A stretch of DNA of 64,000 nucleotides from Chlorobiota bacterium (GTDB lineage: Bacteria > Bacteroidota > Ignavibacteria > Kapaibacteriales > NICIL-2), in contig JAOAGY010000006.1 in NCBI GenBank assembly GCA_026415505.1, positions 1 through 64,000 on the forward strand. The letters are read 5' to 3'. Within the stretch, counting starts at the first letter, position 1, and each line of letters starts with the position of its first letter. A program made the position numbers and the translations under genes. This document shows positions 24,303 to 31,858 of this stretch, piece after piece. Under the pieces are notes generated by a model, which was not told the DNA's origin, ran no database searches, and saw only the letters and a program-made list of their open reading frames with translations.

Positions 24303-25589
24303 CTAACGATTCCGATTATCAAGGCGTTCCCCAAGCAGCGCCAGTGCGTCCGATTCGAGTCTGTCCAGATATGCAAGATCGTCGGGCGCGATCGAAACGG
24401 CACCTGTGCCGATTTCCGTTGCCACTGCTCGATACGCAGCACGAAAGCTCTCTCCCGTCGATCGCATTCGTCGGTGAATCCTCTCGACGCTGCCGATAGC
24501 GCTGTACTCCTGGCGCTCGAGGAGACCGTCCACCGGCTCGATGTGTGGTAGCACGTGCAGCAGAACTCCGATACACTCGTCGAAGTCGTCCCACGCCGGC
24601 AGCAAGAGTTCCTTGAGCAGTTGGTAGTCGCGGTGGTATCCCGATGGCAAATTCATCGTGACTGCCGCGATGTCGCTCGGCAAAAGCTGCAGCCGATTGA
24701 AGCGTCCGCGCAGCAGTTCGAATACGTCCGGATTCTGTTTGTGCGGCATGATGCTCGATCCGGTCGAAAGCCACGGCGGCAATCGGAGAAAACGGAAACC
24801 GGTGGACACATACAGCACCACGTCCATCGCAAAACGTCCGAGTGTGGCTGCTTGTGCAGAGAGTGCGATCGCTACGGCACGTTCGATCTTGCCGCGCAGC
24901 AACTGCGCCGCTGCAGGACTGGCGACCGTCTCGTCGAAGCCGAGCAGCTCGGTCGTGCGGTGGCGGAAAATCGGGAAACTGCTGCCGTAGCCCGCTGCTG
25001 TGCCGAGCGGATTCTTGCCGGCAAGATGCAACACCGGTTCGGCGAATGCAATGTCTTCCAGCAGCGATTCGGCAAAAGACGCCATCCACAGTGCGAACGT
25101 CGTCGGCATCGCTGCTTGCAAATGTGTCATGCCGGGCATCGGCACGTGTCGGTGCGACTGCGCCCACTCGAGCATCGTTCGAACGAGACGCTCGCTTTGC
25201 TCGATCGTTCGACGCATCCGGTCGCGCACGTAGAGCACCAGCGCGGTGAGCACCTGGTCGTTCCGCGAGCGCGCAGTGTGAATCTTTTCGCCGATGCTTC
25301 CCAGTGCTGCAGTCAGTTCGGCTTCGAGCTGCGAATGAACGTCTTCGATACCGTCGGCGATGCGAAACTCGCCTCGCTCGATGCGTTCGGCGATGCGCTC
25401 GAGTTCGGCAACGAGCAGCGCTGCTTCGTCACTGGTGATGATACCGCACTCGCCGAGCATCCGCGCATGCGCGATCGAAGCGAGAACGTCGTACCGAGCG
25501 AGTGCAATGTCGAACTGCGGATCGCGACCGATCGTGAATCGCTCGACGATCGGATCGAGCTGCGTTCCGGCTTTTTCCCAGAGTTTCAT
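24303..25589 (-). CDS. argH: Argininosuccinate lyase
   Basis: MKLWEKAGTQLDPIVERFTIGRD; GSSIMPHKQNPDVFELLRG signature. Confidence 0.93.
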   Translation of the reverse strand: MKLWEKAGTQLDPIVERFTIGRDPQFDIALARYDVLASIAHARMLGECGIITSDEAALLVAELERIAERIERGEFRIADGIEDVHSQLEAELTAALGSIGEKIHTARSRNDQVLTALVLYVRDRMRRTIEQSERLVRTMLEWAQSHRHVPMPGMTHLQAAMPTTFALWMASFAESLLEDIAFAEPVLHLAGKNPLGTAAGYGSSFPIFRHRTTELLGFDETVASPAAAQLLRGKIERAVAIALSAQAATLGRFAMDVVLYVSTGFRFLRLPPWLSTGSSIMPHKQNPDVFELLRGRFNRLQLLPSDIAAVTMNLPSGYHRDYQLLKELLLPAWDDFDECIGVLLHVLPHIEPVDGLLERQEYSAIGSVERIHRRMRSTGESFRAAYRAVATEIGTGAVSIAPDDLAYLDRLESDALALLGERLDNRNR

Positions 25590-26659
25590 GACTGGTGCAA
25601 CTGATGGTGTGTTATTTCGTCGGCAACAGCGGCAAGAAAACGCCGATACCCTTCGATGCCGCCAGCGAGCTCGTCGAGAGCGATGAACTCATCGGCAGTG
25701 TGCGAACGCTGCGATTCCCCCGGACCCATCTTGATGCTCGGCATCGGCAGCAACGCTTGATCGGAAAGCGTCGGCGATGCATAGCGCTCGATACCGATGC
25801 GCTCGGCGACGCGCTCGAAAAGGTGTCCGCGGGGAAGTCGTGACGGTCGCAGACGCAGCGAAACACTCTCGATGCGCGAGCGGAGTTGGCGTTGCAGTGT
25901 GCCCAGAATTTCCTCGTGTGTGTATGCGTCGGTCGTGCGAATGTCCACTGTGAACGAGCAGCGATCGGGGACCACGTTGTGCTGCGTACCGGCTGCGATC
26001 ACGGTCACAGTCGTGCGAACACGTCCGAGCACGTCGCTTGTGCGCTCGAACGGTTGGGTGTGCAGCCAAGCGATATCGTCGAGCGCGACGTCGATCGCGT
26101 TGACGCCTGTGCCGTGCGCGGCATGACCTGCCACACCATCGGCGACACAGCGGACGACCATCAGACCACGTTCGGCAATCGCCATGCGCATTGCGGTCGG
26201 TTCGCCGACGATCGCCGCCTCGATGCGCGGAAGATGCGGCAACAGCGACGCGATGCCGCCTTCGCCGCTGATTTCCTCCTCGGCGCTGGCAGCGAAAACG
26301 AGATTGAACGGCAGACGCTCGAAAGCCAGCTCGGAAAAGACTACCGCCAATGCGACCAAACTCGCGCCGGCATCGTTGCTGCCGAGTCCGTACAGCTTGC
26401 CATCGTCGATCGTCGGTGTGTAGGGGTCGCGCGTCCATCCGTCGCATGGTTTGACCGTGTCGAGATGCGAGTTGAGCAGAAACGTCGGCGCGGACTCGTC
26501 GAAATGGAGCGTTCGCGCCCAGACGTTGTTGCCGATGCGTTGCGAGGGAATGCCGCGTCGGCGGAGAAACTCTGCGAGGATGTCTGCACGCTGGCTTTCG
26601 TGCCGACTCGGTGCCGGCGTCGCGATGAGCTGGCAGAGCAGTTCGAGTGCGTCGTTCAT
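25586..26659 (-). CDS. argE: M20-family deacylase, probable N-acyl-ornithine deacetylase (ArgE-like)
   Basis: M20 motifs (LLNSHLDTVKPCDGW, GLGSNDAGASLVAL, SAEEEISGEGG); in arg operon; overlaps argH. Confidence 0.85.
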   Translation of the reverse strand: MNDALELLCQLIATPAPSRHESQRADILAEFLRRRGIPSQRIGNNVWARTLHFDESAPTFLLNSHLDTVKPCDGWTRDPYTPTIDDGKLYGLGSNDAGASLVALAVVFSELAFERLPFNLVFAASAEEEISGEGGIASLLPHLPRIEAAIVGEPTAMRMAIAERGLMVVRCVADGVAGHAAHGTGVNAIDVALDDIAWLHTQPFERTSDVLGRVRTTVTVIAAGTQHNVVPDRCSFTVDIRTTDAYTHEEILGTLQRQLRSRIESVSLRLRPSRLPRGHLFERVAERIGIERYASPTLSDQALLPMPSIKMGPGESQRSHTADEFIALDELAGGIEGYRRFLAAVADEITHHQLHQS

Positions 26660-27432
26660 AGTACGCTCTCGCGATGAGCGACGATGCGTGTGCCGAAGCG
26701 GTGCGGCAAGGTATCTGCGCCGACGATAGCGACCTCGACACCGCATTCGGCAGCAGCGAGTGCTGCATCGAGCTTCGGCAAGATGCCGTCGCGAGCGACG
26801 CCACGTTCCAGCAGCTCCGCATAACCGGAGCGATCGAGCAGGGGAAGAATCCGTCCATCGTCGCCGCGAACGCCACCGCTCGGCGTGCAGAGCGACAGCT
26901 CGACCGACCAATCGTGCGCGGCGAACATGACGGCGATCGTCGCAGCGATCGTATCGGCGTTCGTGTTGAGCAGTCCGCCCCAGCCGTCGTGCGTGACGGG
27001 TGAAACGACCGGGGAAAACCCGCGCTCGATCAGCGACTGCAGCAATTCGATGTCCGTGTGCACGGGATCGCCGACCAAACCGAAAGCAATCTCGCCGCTT
27101 CGACGTGTCGCACGGATTGTGCCGCCATCGAGTGCTGCAATCCCGACAGCGCGAACACCTGCTGCCAGCAGTGCGGCAACCAATCGCTTGTTGACAGTGC
27201 CAGCGATCGTCATCACGAGTACTTCGAGCGTCGCTTCGTCGGTTATGCGACGTCCGTTGTGAAAGCGCGACTCGATGCCGAGCCGGGCGGCGAGTTCGGT
27301 CGTTTGACGTCCGCCGCCGTGCACGATGACGAGCGGTTGCGGCAAGAGCGCGACCCGGCGCGCCAGCGTTCGAATGTGTTCGTCGCTGTCGAGAAGTTCG
27401 CCGCCGATTTTGAACACATGCACGGACTTCAT
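26656..27432 (-). CDS. argB: Acetylglutamate (or acylglutamate) kinase
   Basis: MKSVHVFKIGGELLDSDEHI ... VIVHGGGRQTTELAARLGI amino-acid-kinase fold; arg operon. Confidence 0.9.
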   Translation of the reverse strand: MKSVHVFKIGGELLDSDEHIRTLARRVALLPQPLVIVHGGGRQTTELAARLGIESRFHNGRRITDEATLEVLVMTIAGTVNKRLVAALLAAGVRAVGIAALDGGTIRATRRSGEIAFGLVGDPVHTDIELLQSLIERGFSPVVSPVTHDGWGGLLNTNADTIAATIAVMFAAHDWSVELSLCTPSGGVRGDDGRILPLLDRSGYAELLERGVARDGILPKLDAALAAAECGVEVAIVGADTLPHRFGTRIVAHRESVL

Positions 27433-28376
27433 AACGCCTCGACTATCGTTCGCAGTACAGCTTGTGCAGCGGGGATGCGGTTGGCTGCTTGCTCGACGAC
27501 GATCGACCGCGGCGAATCGAGCACTGCGTCCGCAGCGATGACGTTGCGTCGAATCGGCAAGCAGTGCATGAAAAAGCCGTCGCGCGTGAGTGCCATTTTC
27601 TCCGGAGTGATTTGCCAGTTCTGGTCGTGCGAAAGGATTTTTCCGTAGTCGCGATAGCTCGACCAGTTTTTGGCGTACACGAAGTCGGCACCGTCGAGCG
27701 CTGCATCTTGGTCGTGCGTGATCGTCGCGCCGCGAGTGAATCGTTCGTCCAACTCGTAGCCGGGCGGATGAGCGATCACCAGTTCGTAGCCCATCGCCAG
27801 CGTCCATTCGGCGAACGAATTCGGCACCGCTTGTGGCAACGCGCGCGGATGCGGTGCCCACGTGAGCACCACGCGCGGACGCGACGAACGTTTGAACTGC
27901 TCGATGGTCATCACGTCCGCCAGCGATTGCAGCGGATGCCGCGTCGCCGATTCGAGACTGACGACCGGCACACCGGACAGCTCGACGAAACGTTCGAGAA
28001 TGGTCTCGGCGTAGTCTTCGTCGCGATCGTGCAGCCGCGCAAACGACCGCACACCGAGCACGTCCACGTAGCGACCGAGTACCGCTGCTGCTTCCCGGAT
28101 GTGCTCGGCAGCCGAGCCGTCCATGATGGCGCCGTCGCGCGTTTCGAGCGCCCACGAGTCGCTGCCGACGGTCATTGCGACGACGTCCATACCGAGCAGC
28201 GTCGCCGCACGGTGGGTACTCACGCGTGTGCGCAGACTCGGATTGAAAAACACCATGCCGAGCGTTCGTCCTGCGCCGAGATTGCGCCACGCATGTGGGC
28301 TCCGTTTGCATTCGAACGCTCGGTCGAGAAGCTGTGCCAGATCGGCGACGTCGGCAAGTTTCGTGAAACGTTTCAT
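27429..28376 (-). CDS. argF': N-acetyl/N-succinyl-ornithine carbamoyltransferase (ArgF')
   Basis: FFNPSLRTRVST carbamoyl-phosphate motif; HPRALPQAVPNSFAEW; HCLPIRRN. Confidence 0.9.
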   Translation of the reverse strand: MKRFTKLADVADLAQLLDRAFECKRSPHAWRNLGAGRTLGMVFFNPSLRTRVSTHRAATLLGMDVVAMTVGSDSWALETRDGAIMDGSAAEHIREAAAVLGRYVDVLGVRSFARLHDRDEDYAETILERFVELSGVPVVSLESATRHPLQSLADVMTIEQFKRSSRPRVVLTWAPHPRALPQAVPNSFAEWTLAMGYELVIAHPPGYELDERFTRGATITHDQDAALDGADFVYAKNWSSYRDYGKILSHDQNWQITPEKMALTRDGFFMHCLPIRRNVIAADAVLDSPRSIVVEQAANRIPAAQAVLRTIVEAL

Positions 28377-28393
28377 TGCATCGTCCGAAAGTG

Positions 28394-29335
28394 TTACCAA
28401 CCGATACCGCGAAGCGGTAATCCCGCGCATTCGTCGAAGCCCAGCGCGAGATTCATGTTCTGCACCGCTTGGGCAGCGGCGCCTTTGAGCATGTTGTCGA
28501 GAACGCACACGATCGCTGCGACACCATCGGCAACCGTCGTGTGGAGAATCGCACGGGCAGTGCCCACGACCCACTTGAGATCGGGAACGTCGTCGGAGAT
28601 CGTCACCAGAGGATGCGGTGCGTAGTAGTCGCGAAAAAGCTGCTCGAGATCGTGTTCGTCGAGCGAGGTTTCGACGATGCACGTCGTTGCGATGCCGCGT
28701 GTGAATGCACCGCGGTACGGCACAAAGCGCAACTGTGCACCAGTGCCGAGCGCAGCGGTCACTTCGGCGGCGTGACGGTGGCGGAGAACGCTGTACGGCT
28801 GCGCGTTGGCAAAGCGCCACGAAAAGTGGAGCGTCGGACTCGGCTCGGCACCGGCGCCGGTCGAACCGGTGATACCGCTGGCATGAACGATGGGCGGTAA
28901 ATTCTCGTTGCGCGCAAGCGGCAGAAGCGACAGCAGCAGTGCCGTTGCAAAGCAACCGGGATTGGCGATCCGTCGAGCTGTACGAAGACGCTCGCGATGC
29001 AGCTCGGGAGAACCGTACACGAACGACGGATCGGCGCGGTGATCGCTGCTGAGATCGACGACGATGCTGCTGCGAAGGTGCGGATACTGCTCGAGCACCG
29101 AACGTGCGGCGCCGTGAGGAACAGCCAAAAACACGACGTCCGCATCGTCACTGGGTGCAGCCGTCAGCTCGATGTCGCACACGCCGAGAAGATCGGGAGC
29201 GATCCGACCGAAGCGTGTGCCGGCGTGCGATCGGCTCGTTGCGTAGGCTATCTGCACGTGTGGGTGAAGCGCGAGAATGCGCATCAGTTCGGTACCGACG
29301 AAACCGCTCGCACCGACGACTCCGACGCGGATCAT
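28394..29335 (-). CDS. argC: N-acetyl-gamma-glutamyl-phosphate reductase
   Basis: MIRVGVVGASGFVGTELMRIL; ANPGCFATA active site. Confidence 0.93.
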   Translation of the reverse strand: MIRVGVVGASGFVGTELMRILALHPHVQIAYATSRSHAGTRFGRIAPDLLGVCDIELTAAPSDDADVVFLAVPHGAARSVLEQYPHLRSSIVVDLSSDHRADPSFVYGSPELHRERLRTARRIANPGCFATALLLSLLPLARNENLPPIVHASGITGSTGAGAEPSPTLHFSWRFANAQPYSVLRHRHAAEVTAALGTGAQLRFVPYRGAFTRGIATTCIVETSLDEHDLEQLFRDYYAPHPLVTISDDVPDLKWVVGTARAILHTTVADGVAAIVCVLDNMLKGAAAQAVQNMNLALGFDECAGLPLRGIGW

Positions 29336-30522
29336 CGCTCGCCTCCGTTGACGATGTGGTAGATGCGGAGCTGCTGTGCCATGATGCGGGCGAAACCGCG
29401 AACGTCGGCGGCGTCCCAATCGGCTGCGCGTTCGCCGTAGCTGCCGAAGCGTGGATTCATCAAGTCGTGCGGCGAGCGAACTCCTTCCAGCTCGAAGTGC
29501 TTTGGCTCCAGCCGGACGAACACTTCACCGGTGACGGTTCGTTGGGTGCGTTCGAGAAACGCTTCGATGGCGCGAAGTGCCGGTTCCTCGAACATGCCTT
29601 CGTGGAGAAGTTGCCCGTACCAGAGCGCCAGTTGTTCTTTGAGCACCAGTTGCCATTTGGTGAGCGTGTGCTTTTCGAGCAAGTGGTGCGCAGCGATCGT
29701 GACGATCGGAGCAGCAGCTTCGAATCCGACGCGCCCTTTGGTGCCGATGATGGTATCGCCGACGTGGATGCCGCGCCCGATGCCCAGCGGTGCAGCACGG
29801 CGTTCGAGTTCGGCGATGGCATCGAGGGGATGTGGGAAGCGTCTGCCGTCGAGCGAGACCAGTTCGCCACGCTCGAATCCGAGCGCGATGCGGACAGGTT
29901 CGCTGCATGCGATCGGCGTCGGGTATGCGTCCTCCGGAAGTGGCTCGTGCGAAGTCAGTGTCTGCCGACCGCCGATGGTCGTGCCCCAGATACCGCGATT
30001 GATCGAATAGGGCGGGCGCTCGTGTTCGAGTGCGACGCCATGCGCATGGAGAAACGCCAGTGCTTCTTCGCGCGAGATGTTGCCGTCGCGGATCGGCGTG
30101 AGAATCTCCAGCTCCGGTGCTACGATGCTCCAGGCGGCATCGAAGCGGATTTGGTCGTTACCGGCACCGGTGCTTCCGTGCGCGAGCGCGTCGGCACCGA
30201 TAGCGCGGGCATGTGCTGCGATCGAGCGCGCTTGAATGGCACGCTCGGCACTGACCGACAGCGGATACGTTCCGTAGCGGAGCACGTTGCCGAAAACCAG
30301 ATAGCGCAGACAGTCGCTATAGAGCGCCCGCGTTTCGTCCAGTGTCGTGTGCGATGCAGCACCGAGCGATCGAGCACGCGCGGCGATTGCGTTGCGTTCG
30401 TCCGGCGAAAAACCGCCTGTGTCCACTGTGACGGTGTGAACCTCGTAGCCTTGTTGGCGCAGCCACACCAGGCAATACGTCGTGTCCAAACCGCCGCTGA
30501 AAGCGAGAACGACCTTTTTCAC
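29332..30522 (-). CDS. argG: Argininosuccinate synthase
   Basis: KKVVLAFSGGLDTTYCLVWLRQQGYEV, GSTGAGNDQIRFD; GTG start at 30522 overlapping the upstream stop. Confidence 0.92.
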   Translation of the reverse strand: MKKVVLAFSGGLDTTYCLVWLRQQGYEVHTVTVDTGGFSPDERNAIAARARSLGAASHTTLDETRALYSDCLRYLVFGNVLRYGTYPLSVSAERAIQARSIAAHARAIGADALAHGSTGAGNDQIRFDAAWSIVAPELEILTPIRDGNISREEALAFLHAHGVALEHERPPYSINRGIWGTTIGGRQTLTSHEPLPEDAYPTPIACSEPVRIALGFERGELVSLDGRRFPHPLDAIAELERRAAPLGIGRGIHVGDTIIGTKGRVGFEAAAPIVTIAAHHLLEKHTLTKWQLVLKEQLALWYGQLLHEGMFEEPALRAIEAFLERTQRTVTGEVFVRLEPKHFELEGVRSPHDLMNPRFGSYGERAADWDAADVRGFARIMAQQLRIYHIVNGGER

Positions 30523-31145
30523 GAGTGTGCATCTCCGTTCGACGGTGGAACTAGCGGCAGCGGGTGTTCGATGTGTTCGGCGGGATCGTAGAGCAAGCCG
30601 GTGCAAAGGCACATTGTCCGACCGGTGCGTTGGAGGATGTCGTAGTTGCGGCAGCTTTGACAGCCGCGCCAGAACTCGTCGTCGCTGGTCAGTTCGGAAA
30701 AGTGAACGGGACGAAAGCCGAGTTCGCTGTTGAGCTTGAGCACAGCGGCGCTGGTAGTGATGCTGAAAATTTTCGCTGTCGGATAGAGTTGCCGCGACAG
30801 TTCGAAGGCAGCGCGCTTGATGCGTCGAGCGATGCCGAGTTTGCGGTATTCGGGTGCGACGATGAGTCCTGAATTGGCGACGTAGCGCCCGTGCTCCCAC
30901 GTCTCGATGTAGCAAAAGCCGACCAGATGCCCGTCGTGGTGAGCGACGATCGCTTTGCCTTCGCGCATTTTTTGGCGAATGTATTCCGGTGGGCGTCGCG
31001 CGATTCCGGTGCCGCGCTGCTGTGCCGATTGCTCGATCAGCTCCGAGATGCGTTCGGCAAAATGCTCGTGTGCACCGGAGGCGACCTCGACGGTAATGTG
31101 CGCCGCGTCGAGTGTCGGTTGTGTGGTGGTTGTCGTCGGTTCCAT
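30519..31145 (-). CDS. GNAT acetyltransferase, probable N-acetylglutamate synthase of the arg operon
   Basis: GNAT fold (VANSGLIVAPEYRKLGIARRIKRAAFELS), C-terminal CQSC...CLCTG cysteines; first gene of the arg operon. Confidence 0.8.
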   Translation of the reverse strand: MEPTTTTTQPTLDAAHITVEVASGAHEHFAERISELIEQSAQQRGTGIARRPPEYIRQKMREGKAIVAHHDGHLVGFCYIETWEHGRYVANSGLIVAPEYRKLGIARRIKRAAFELSRQLYPTAKIFSITTSAAVLKLNSELGFRPVHFSELTSDDEFWRGCQSCRNYDILQRTGRTMCLCTGLLYDPAEHIEHPLPLVPPSNGDAHS

Positions 31146-31166
31146 AGCTGTCCACAGCGGTTCGAC

Positions 31167-31209
31167 AAAAAACGAGCGCCGCTTCCTGCGTGGCACAGGA
31201 AGCGGCGCT
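31167..31209 (-). terminator. Intrinsic terminator/attenuator in the arg operon leader
   Basis: Minus strand AGCGCCGCTTCCTG-TGCCACG-CAGGAAGCGGCGCT-CG-TTTTTT, perfect 14-bp stem, ending about 22 nt before the GNAT ATG. Confidence 0.9.
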
Positions 31210-31240
31210 TTGGATTTCGGTTTCGGCTATCGTCGTTGGA

Positions 31241-31342
31241 TCATCGGTCTGCTGTAGCTCGATTTGCCGACAACACAAGCGCTACCCTGTGCCACTGCTG
31301 GCAGGGTCGTCGCACTTGTCGTCGTCGGATCGAGAAGAGCAT
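31241..31342 (-). CDS. Putative Arg-rich leader peptide MLFSIRRRQVRRPCQQWHRVALVLSANRATADR*
   Basis: 33-codon ORF between the arg operon and upstream region; CGA CGA CGA CAA GTG CGA CGA directly before the protector hairpin. Confidence 0.65.
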   Translation of the reverse strand: MLFSIRRRQVRRPCQQWHRVALVLSANRATADR

Positions 31343-31420
31343 CGGCGTCGAACGATGATCGGTTCACAAAATCGGGGCGCGAATATACGGCGTGCGGGAT
31401 GTTTTTTGCATCTCATCGCC

Positions 31421-31858
31421 GCCACTTGTCATGCCGAACTCGTTTCGGCATCTCGCACTCCACTGCCTGTCATGCTGAACTTGGTTCAGCAACTCGAAGA
31501 CCCTGAAACAAGTTCAGGGTAACGGGCTTTTGCGAGCGCCCCTGTTTGTCATGCCGAACTTGTTTCGGCATCTCGCACTCCACTGCCTGTCATGCTGAAC
31601 TTGGTTCAGCATCTCGAAGACCCTGAAACAAGTTCAGGGTAACGGGCTTTTGCGAGCGCCCCTGTTTGTCATGCCGAACTCGTTTCGGCATCTCGCACTC
31701 CACTGCTTGTCATGCTGAACTTGGTTCAGCATCTCGAAGACCCTGAAACAAGTTCAGGGTAACGGGCTTTTGCGAGCGCCCCTGTTTGTCATGCCGAACT
31801 CGTTTCGGCATCTCGTCGCTGCCACTTGTCATGCCGAACCTGTTTCGGCATCTTTTTC
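31421..31858. repeat. Palindromic repeat cluster B, containing about three tandem 120-bp composite units
   Basis: 31501-31620, 31621-31740 and following share a 120-bp period (...gggcttttgcgagcgcccctgtttgtcatgccgaact...). Confidence 0.95.

Follow-up and report, generated by a model that had tools for sequence, protein, structure and literature searches.

Arginine synthesis is the textbook example of a pathway kept in check by the ArgR repressor; attenuators that work through the ribosome have been catalogued for other amino acids. The trp, his, leu, ilv, thr, and phe attenuators of Proteobacteria, Actinobacteria, and some Firmicutes combine a leader ORF containing cognate codons, mutually exclusive 1:2, 2:3, and 3:4 pairings, and an intrinsic terminator placed immediately ahead of the biosynthetic operon, as does the locus described here. 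Arginine operons of Actinobacteria showed no conserved RNA structure in the study of Seliverstov et al. (PMC1262725); the arginine T-boxes of Firmicutes, cited in that paper, also exert control at the RNA level through arginine charging (PMC1262725). Consecutive Arg codons in a short ORF sense arginine in the speF leader (orf34) of Salmonella and Escherichia coli (PMC6386406), and leader-peptide Arg codons sense arginine limitation in rbfL of Staphylococcus aureus (PMC13009471), in both cases similarly to what is proposed below. In the same phylum as our organism, a study on Flavobacterium psychrophilum gives clues to leader-peptide attenuation at amino-acid operons, with no arginine case named in its main text (PMC9723704). 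The literature searched, which takes in few subscription papers, yielded no case of an arginine biosynthetic operon controlled by a leader-peptide transcription attenuator, and the present one is provisionally regarded as new.

The locus lies on the minus strand of a 64-kb stretch of DNA from a Kapaibacteria-type Chlorobiota bacterium (hereafter the window, meaning the whole stretch analysed), where a leader precedes the gene order GNAT-argG-argC-argF-argB-argE, an arginine-making set according to Pfam. We take the leader, with a probability of about 0.88, for a trp/his-type transcription attenuator that works through the translating ribosome and responds to charged Arg-tRNA(Arg). Its elements and the genes behind it are as follows.

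31382..31410, minus strand: promoter-like element, TGCAAA (31410-31405), 17 nt, TATATT (31387-31382), then CGCGCC (read directly), with a predicted start at about 31375.
31241..31342, minus strand: leader-peptide ORF MLFSIRRRQVRRPCQQWHRVALVLSANRATADR* with an ATG start, 33 codons plus stop; RRRxxRR(R)[PS]C..WH in L001-L005.
31319..31327, minus strand: first Arg cluster, CGA CGA CGA, invariant in five species.
31307..31312, minus strand: second Arg cluster, CGA CGA, directly 5' of region 1; one additional CGA codon in L004 and L005.
31311..31328, minus strand: outer region 1, CCGACGACGACAAGTGCG, which consists of Arg codons and provides the 5' arm of the outer 1:2 stem (minimum-free-energy (MFE) fold; compensatory pairs).
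31299..31307, minus strand: inner region 1, ACCCTGCCA (read directly and MFE fold; C-G to U-A compensatory change in L002).
31277..31294, minus strand: region 2, TGGCACAGGGTAGCGCTT, partner of region 1 or region 3 (MFE, duplex, and masked folds).
31267..31281, minus strand: outer region 2, CGCTTGTGTTGTCGG, the 3' arm of the outer 1:2 stem (MFE fold, compensatory changes, duplex energies).
31191..31210, minus strand: region 3, AAGCGCCGCTTCCTGTGCCA, partner of region 2 (antiterminator) or region 4 (terminator) (masked folding).
31167..31209, minus strand: predicted intrinsic terminator, a 14-16 bp stem (31209-31175) followed by CGTTTTTT (31174-31167).
30519..31145, minus strand: GNAT acetyltransferase, the first structural gene (Pfam PF00583).
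29332..30522, minus strand: argG, argininosuccinate synthase (PF00764/PF20979).
28394..29335, minus strand: argC, semialdehyde dehydrogenase, start approximate (PF01118/PF22698).
27429..28382, minus strand: argF-type carbamoyltransferase, start approximate (PF02729/PF00185).
26656..27492, minus strand: argB, acetylglutamate kinase type, start approximate (PF00696).
25586..26686, minus strand: argE-type M20 deacylase, start approximate (PF01546/PF07687).

The GNAT protein is probably the N-acetylglutamate synthase of the operon, judging from its position and its co-presence with argG. The leader ORF, its Arg codons, and the 1:2, 2:3, and 3:4 elements are all situated where the original prediction had placed them. 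The stretch CGA CGA CGA CAA GTG CGA CGA occupies 31327-31307, and in the inner 1:2 helix ACCCTGCCA (31307-31299) pairs with TGGCACAGGGT (31294-31284) through a 2-nt bulge. Around this inner hairpin, which is as predicted, runs an outer stem that had been missed, formed by the Arg codons (CCGACGACGACAAGUGCG, 31328-31311) and CGCUUGUGUUGUCGG (31281-31267), so that region 1 is larger than claimed. The 2:3 helix comprises 15 bp (TGGCACAGG/CCTGTGCCA plus GCGCTT/AAGCGC), and the terminator stem, located between the leader ORF and the first gene, is perfect over 14 bp and is read by the terminator scan as a 16-bp stem with a 3-nt loop. Pairing, masked folds, and duplex energies agree that the antiterminator excludes, and is excluded by, the 1:2 hairpin as well as the terminator. 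Folding, proposed with the prediction as a check, gave the leader an MFE of -80.8 kcal/mol against -55.6 ± 4.0 kcal/mol for dinucleotide shuffles (z = -6.4; 0 of 200 shuffles as good).

With the GNAT protein as the query, the operon was found in four further species of the window's genus, which have the leader peptides MRLFCSIRRRHVRRSCHQWHRIARALSASRVITS, MFCGNCRRRTLRRPCLLWHGKARVLSGRNVSQIEDP, MTSLLRRRSLRRRPCQQWHGTAAVLSQALERERYHW, and MASVLRRRSLRRRPCQQWHGTAAVLSQALENTTYHW. The prediction had staked itself on relatives retaining the Arg codons and the three pairings; the promoter-like box, the ATG leader ORF, the Arg clusters, 1:2, 2:3, and 3:4 with its U-run are all kept in 4/4 operon-bearing congeners. 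A short ORF with a run of end-product codons (consensus over the five species, RRRxxRR[R][P/S]C..WH) stands ahead of the arginine operon in each of them. The Arg clusters are separated by two codons that differ freely from species to species (QV, HV, TL, SL, and SL) at a constant codon number, and the sole length change there is one whole extra CGA codon (L004 and L005). CGA accounts for 7/8 of the Arg codons in the leader versus about 1/10 in GNAT plus argG. Judged by itself, the window ORF is not significantly rich in Arg for so GC-rich a sequence (shuffle p = 0.16), and the values for the relatives' ORFs include 0.037 (L004) and 0.003 (L005); the claim that the Arg codons exceed chance is therefore based on their conservation in five species, not on composition. 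The window's genome contains six occurrences of the motif CGACGACGAN6CGACGA; a second arg leader was considered at four other examined sites and rejected, these being long open frames mostly read as Asp- or Thr-rich.

A Thr-rich second frame (PTTTSATTLPAVAQG...) is partly open across the Arg codons of the leader itself, extending over the same stretch in L001-L003, and could in principle be the one read, so as to sense threonine or something else. The starts available to this frame in L001-L003 are all GTG or TTG, none is listed for it in L004 and L005, and the operon makes arginine, so that its being the sensing frame has a next to negligible probability.

The leader stays in place relative to GNAT in species that differ in the sequence 5' of it; because the upstream sequence differs, the leader block is considered to travel with the operon. 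A box, GTAT[AT]TTCGCGCC, is conserved in the five species at -243 to -254 from the GNAT ATG, and takes the form TTGACA-17-TATTTT in L005; a generic sigma-70 scan made no call on the promoter-like element of the window. These observations bear on the reading of the hairpin as an ordinary terminator of an upstream transcript, with a chance ORF before it and the operon promoter just downstream, for which the intergenic location of the terminator and the non-significant single-sequence Arg richness may be cited. The distance from the end of the U-run (31167) to the GNAT ATG (31145-31143) is only 21 nt, close to the claimed value of about 22 nt, the upstream gene varies by species, the nearest upstream ORF in the window ends more than 700 nt earlier, and both the pairing covariation and the promoter box lie upstream of the supposed promoter. 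The conserved promoter-like element 5' of the leader ORF, as a sequence feature, would likewise argue against a transcription start downstream of 31167, and an ordinary terminator appears extremely unlikely. Boxes of the form TAT[AT]TT[CT]GC[AG]C recur 5' of GNAT leaders (L015, L019, L027, L029, and L001-L005) and may represent the -10/-7 promoter element of the order. Between the lipoprotein-like gene and the arg promoter, the window also contains three tandem copies of an intergenic repeat (31417-31815; 120-nt spacing, 96% identical, palindromic units).

The attenuator reading is further corroborated by the way in which the pairings have evolved. In the outer 1:2 stem, two-sided pair changes (C-G/G-C, A-U/C-G/G-C, and G-C/C-G) have occurred while the Arg codons stay, and the inner stem shows a C-G/U-A change in L002; since MAFFT misplaces the codon insertion, these compensatory changes were checked on a codon-aware layout. 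According to duplex energies, the cognate outer arms are more stable than cross-species combinations in L001, L002, L004, and L005, with L003 as the exception: the L001 arm gives -25.8 with L001 versus -16.0 with L004, and the L004 arm gives -27.2 with L004 versus -15.0 to -16.0 with L001-L003, the value for L003 being -15.4. The duplex between regions 2 and 3 amounts to -27 to -33 kcal/mol, with at most 22 of 2000 shuffles of region 2 as good as the cognate one.

Such a strong, conserved RNA structure might also be expected if the ORF were incidental and the RNA itself, as an arginine riboswitch or a T-box, bound arginine or tRNA, and arginine T-boxes occur in other bacteria (cited in PMC1262725). 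Neither the window nor 11 relatives matched an Rfam family: Rfam 15, searched at gathering thresholds and at E up to 10, returned no T-box, riboswitch, or leader family, and a microRNA-family match of E 4.2 is attributed to chance. Moreover, the second Arg cluster, though unpaired in the MFE structure, is an invariant CGA CGA, changing only by a whole CGA codon, and the ATG leader frame is kept in five species; direct sensing by the RNA is thus very unlikely. Conservation of the residues around the Arg codons (PC..WH), together with the known arginine-linked uORFs (PMC6386406, PMC13009471), could instead point to nascent-peptide arrest, in which excess arginine would stall the ribosome on the Arg-rich peptide as in the fungal AAP or in SpeFL-type systems. 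The pairing sequences CCCUGCC and UGGCAC account for the PC..WH residues, conservation does not extend to the residues between the Arg codons, and stalling in excess arginine would lead to antitermination of a biosynthetic operon when it is unneeded, which is the wrong direction. We regard peptide arrest as highly improbable.

For the position dependence of the proposed attenuator, a ribosome was modeled on each leader codon, covering 15 nt ahead of the P site and 14 nt behind it, and the probability of the 2:3 pairing, P(2:3), was calculated for a transcript still lacking region 4; the model considers thermodynamics and not kinetics. The ribosome-free P(2:3) is 0.00-0.02. When the second Arg cluster occupies the A site, it is 0.81-1.00 in each of the five species, and it drops to at most 0.20 with the ribosome at the Cys codon two codons past that cluster. 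In the window leader, P(2:3) is about 0 over the first four codons, 0.75 at the Ile codon, and 0.96-1.00 from the first Arg codon through the Pro after the second cluster, and then zero or nearly so. On the first Arg cluster it is 0.02-0.03 in L004 and 0.45-0.70 in L005; L003 has high values also on earlier codons, and L002, L003, L004, and L005 show some P(2:3) also with the ribosome near the end of the ORF. In silico and in five species, the position of the Arg codons would thus let a stalled ribosome cover region 1 and leave region 2 available, and the predicted preference for the antiterminator upon stalling at the second cluster holds in this folding model. When region 1 is masked before region 4 has been made, the antiterminator forms at -38 to -45 kcal/mol in 5/5 leaders; once region 4 is present, the terminator is the MFE structure in 4/5, so that the switch needs the order of transcription, as do the classical attenuators.

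In the mechanism we propose, RNA polymerase would start near 31375 and a ribosome would translate the 33-codon leader. With Arg-tRNA plentiful, or the ORF untranslated, the long 1:2 hairpin would form between the Arg codons plus CCCUGCC and UGGCACAGGG...UUGUCGG, region 3 would pair with region 4, and transcription would stop at the U-run (31167). When Arg-tRNA is scarce, the ribosome would halt on the CGA codons with its footprint over region 1; region 2 would then pair with region 3 once transcribed, blocking the terminator and allowing transcription of GNAT-argG-argC-argF-argB-argE. As the leader stop codon is located 3' of region 2, release would depend on 1:2 re-forming behind the ribosome.

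The exact architecture is confined to five species (about four independent lineages) of one genus, in which the terminator-like hairpin with its T-run is present in 5/5. In the two other genera of the family, an Arg-containing uORF is present and a comparable terminator is absent. A fifth congener (G001) has neither GNAT nor argG, as is also the case for families f3-f6 of the order, and these genomes may belong to arginine auxotrophs. In family f2 (L006-L009), Arg uORFs with the core RRR[L/M]xLRE are followed by CTCTCGCAGC, complementary to CTGCGAGA, with no U-run terminator, and may represent a different switch on the same operon. Genus g19 (L024 and L030) has two diverged uORFs 5' of GNAT with a shared ending, TLYAIRR*/TLFTIRR*. 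With positive controls detected, searches for the ArgR C-terminal domain (PF02863) gave no match in the window's genome and in 60/61 genomes of the same order, and the N-terminal domain (PF01316) was absent from 21/21 genomes; the sole ArgR gene among the 61 order genomes belongs to a family f3 genome (G037) without argG and GNAT.

Across Bacteroidota, short ATG uORFs in the regions 5' of GNAT (survey loci L031-L110 and L116-L194) were examined for amino-acid clusters, with dinucleotide shuffles as the control, using two samples that partly overlap in lineage and are not strictly independent. In the first (67 loci), 17 loci reached p ≤ 0.05 for arginine, compared with 7 for the runner-up among the other 19 amino acids. 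The second (220 genomes, 74 usable regions) gave 41 for arginine, at most 6 for every other amino acid, and 13 for antisense arginine; with one genome per genus, arginine scored in 21/42. Arg-rich uORFs are thus strongly enriched ahead of GNAT, examples being L130 MQKSLAHRIDRRSVRRIPRRR, L163 ...APTRRRP, L159 ...SPLRRNRFTFRV, and L085 ...RHVRRCA. Among 65 Arg-leader loci, a set including three loci of the window's genus with p above 0.05, a terminator-like hairpin with a T-run was found in 11, five of them from the window's genus. From this it appears that the Arg uORF is widely shared and that the intrinsic terminator is a local feature. In family f32 (L130, L138, L151, and L127), a stem joins the uORF start to the region past the uORF (AUAGAAUUGA/UCAAUUCUA, UAGGAUC/GAUCCUA, and AACAUUGUUCGA/UCGAACGAACAAUGUU), which looks like covariation in a leader RNA absent from Rfam. 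Among the 50 named Bacteroidota genomes of the first-sample loci, ArgR is absent from 42 and present in 8, some of the latter with a leader; a clean exclusion between ArgR and Arg leaders was not seen in these 50 genomes, and no anti-correlation is claimed.

On balance we lean towards a phylum-wide reading, in which Arg leader peptides control arginine synthesis in Bacteroidota: in the greater part of the phylum a GNAT-headed gene set would follow an Arg-rich uORF, mostly in genomes without ArgR, and most lineages would couple the uORF to translation start, Rho, or RNA decay, not to a canonical intrinsic terminator, the window's genus having the full intrinsic-terminator version. The uORF enrichment suggests an overlooked layer of control in common gut, marine, and soil bacteria.

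Compared with the attenuators of the trp type, the leader described here differs in its amino acid, arginine, in the use of the Arg codons as the 5' arm of the 1:2 stem, and, relative to trp, in the position of its stop codon 3' of region 2. The speF leader controls polyamine synthesis through Rho, RNase G, and masking of the ribosome-binding site, with no intrinsic terminator acting on arginine biosynthesis (PMC6386406), and rbfL exerts translational control over a biofilm regulator, with starvation lowering expression (PMC13009471). Arginine T-boxes, unlike this leader, bind tRNA directly and have no leader peptide, and no Rfam T-box matches at the window. ArgR/AhrC has the same physiological job but is a protein repressor, absent from the window's genome; if the attenuator reading is true, the same task has been solved in an ArgR-less group by an RNA switch.
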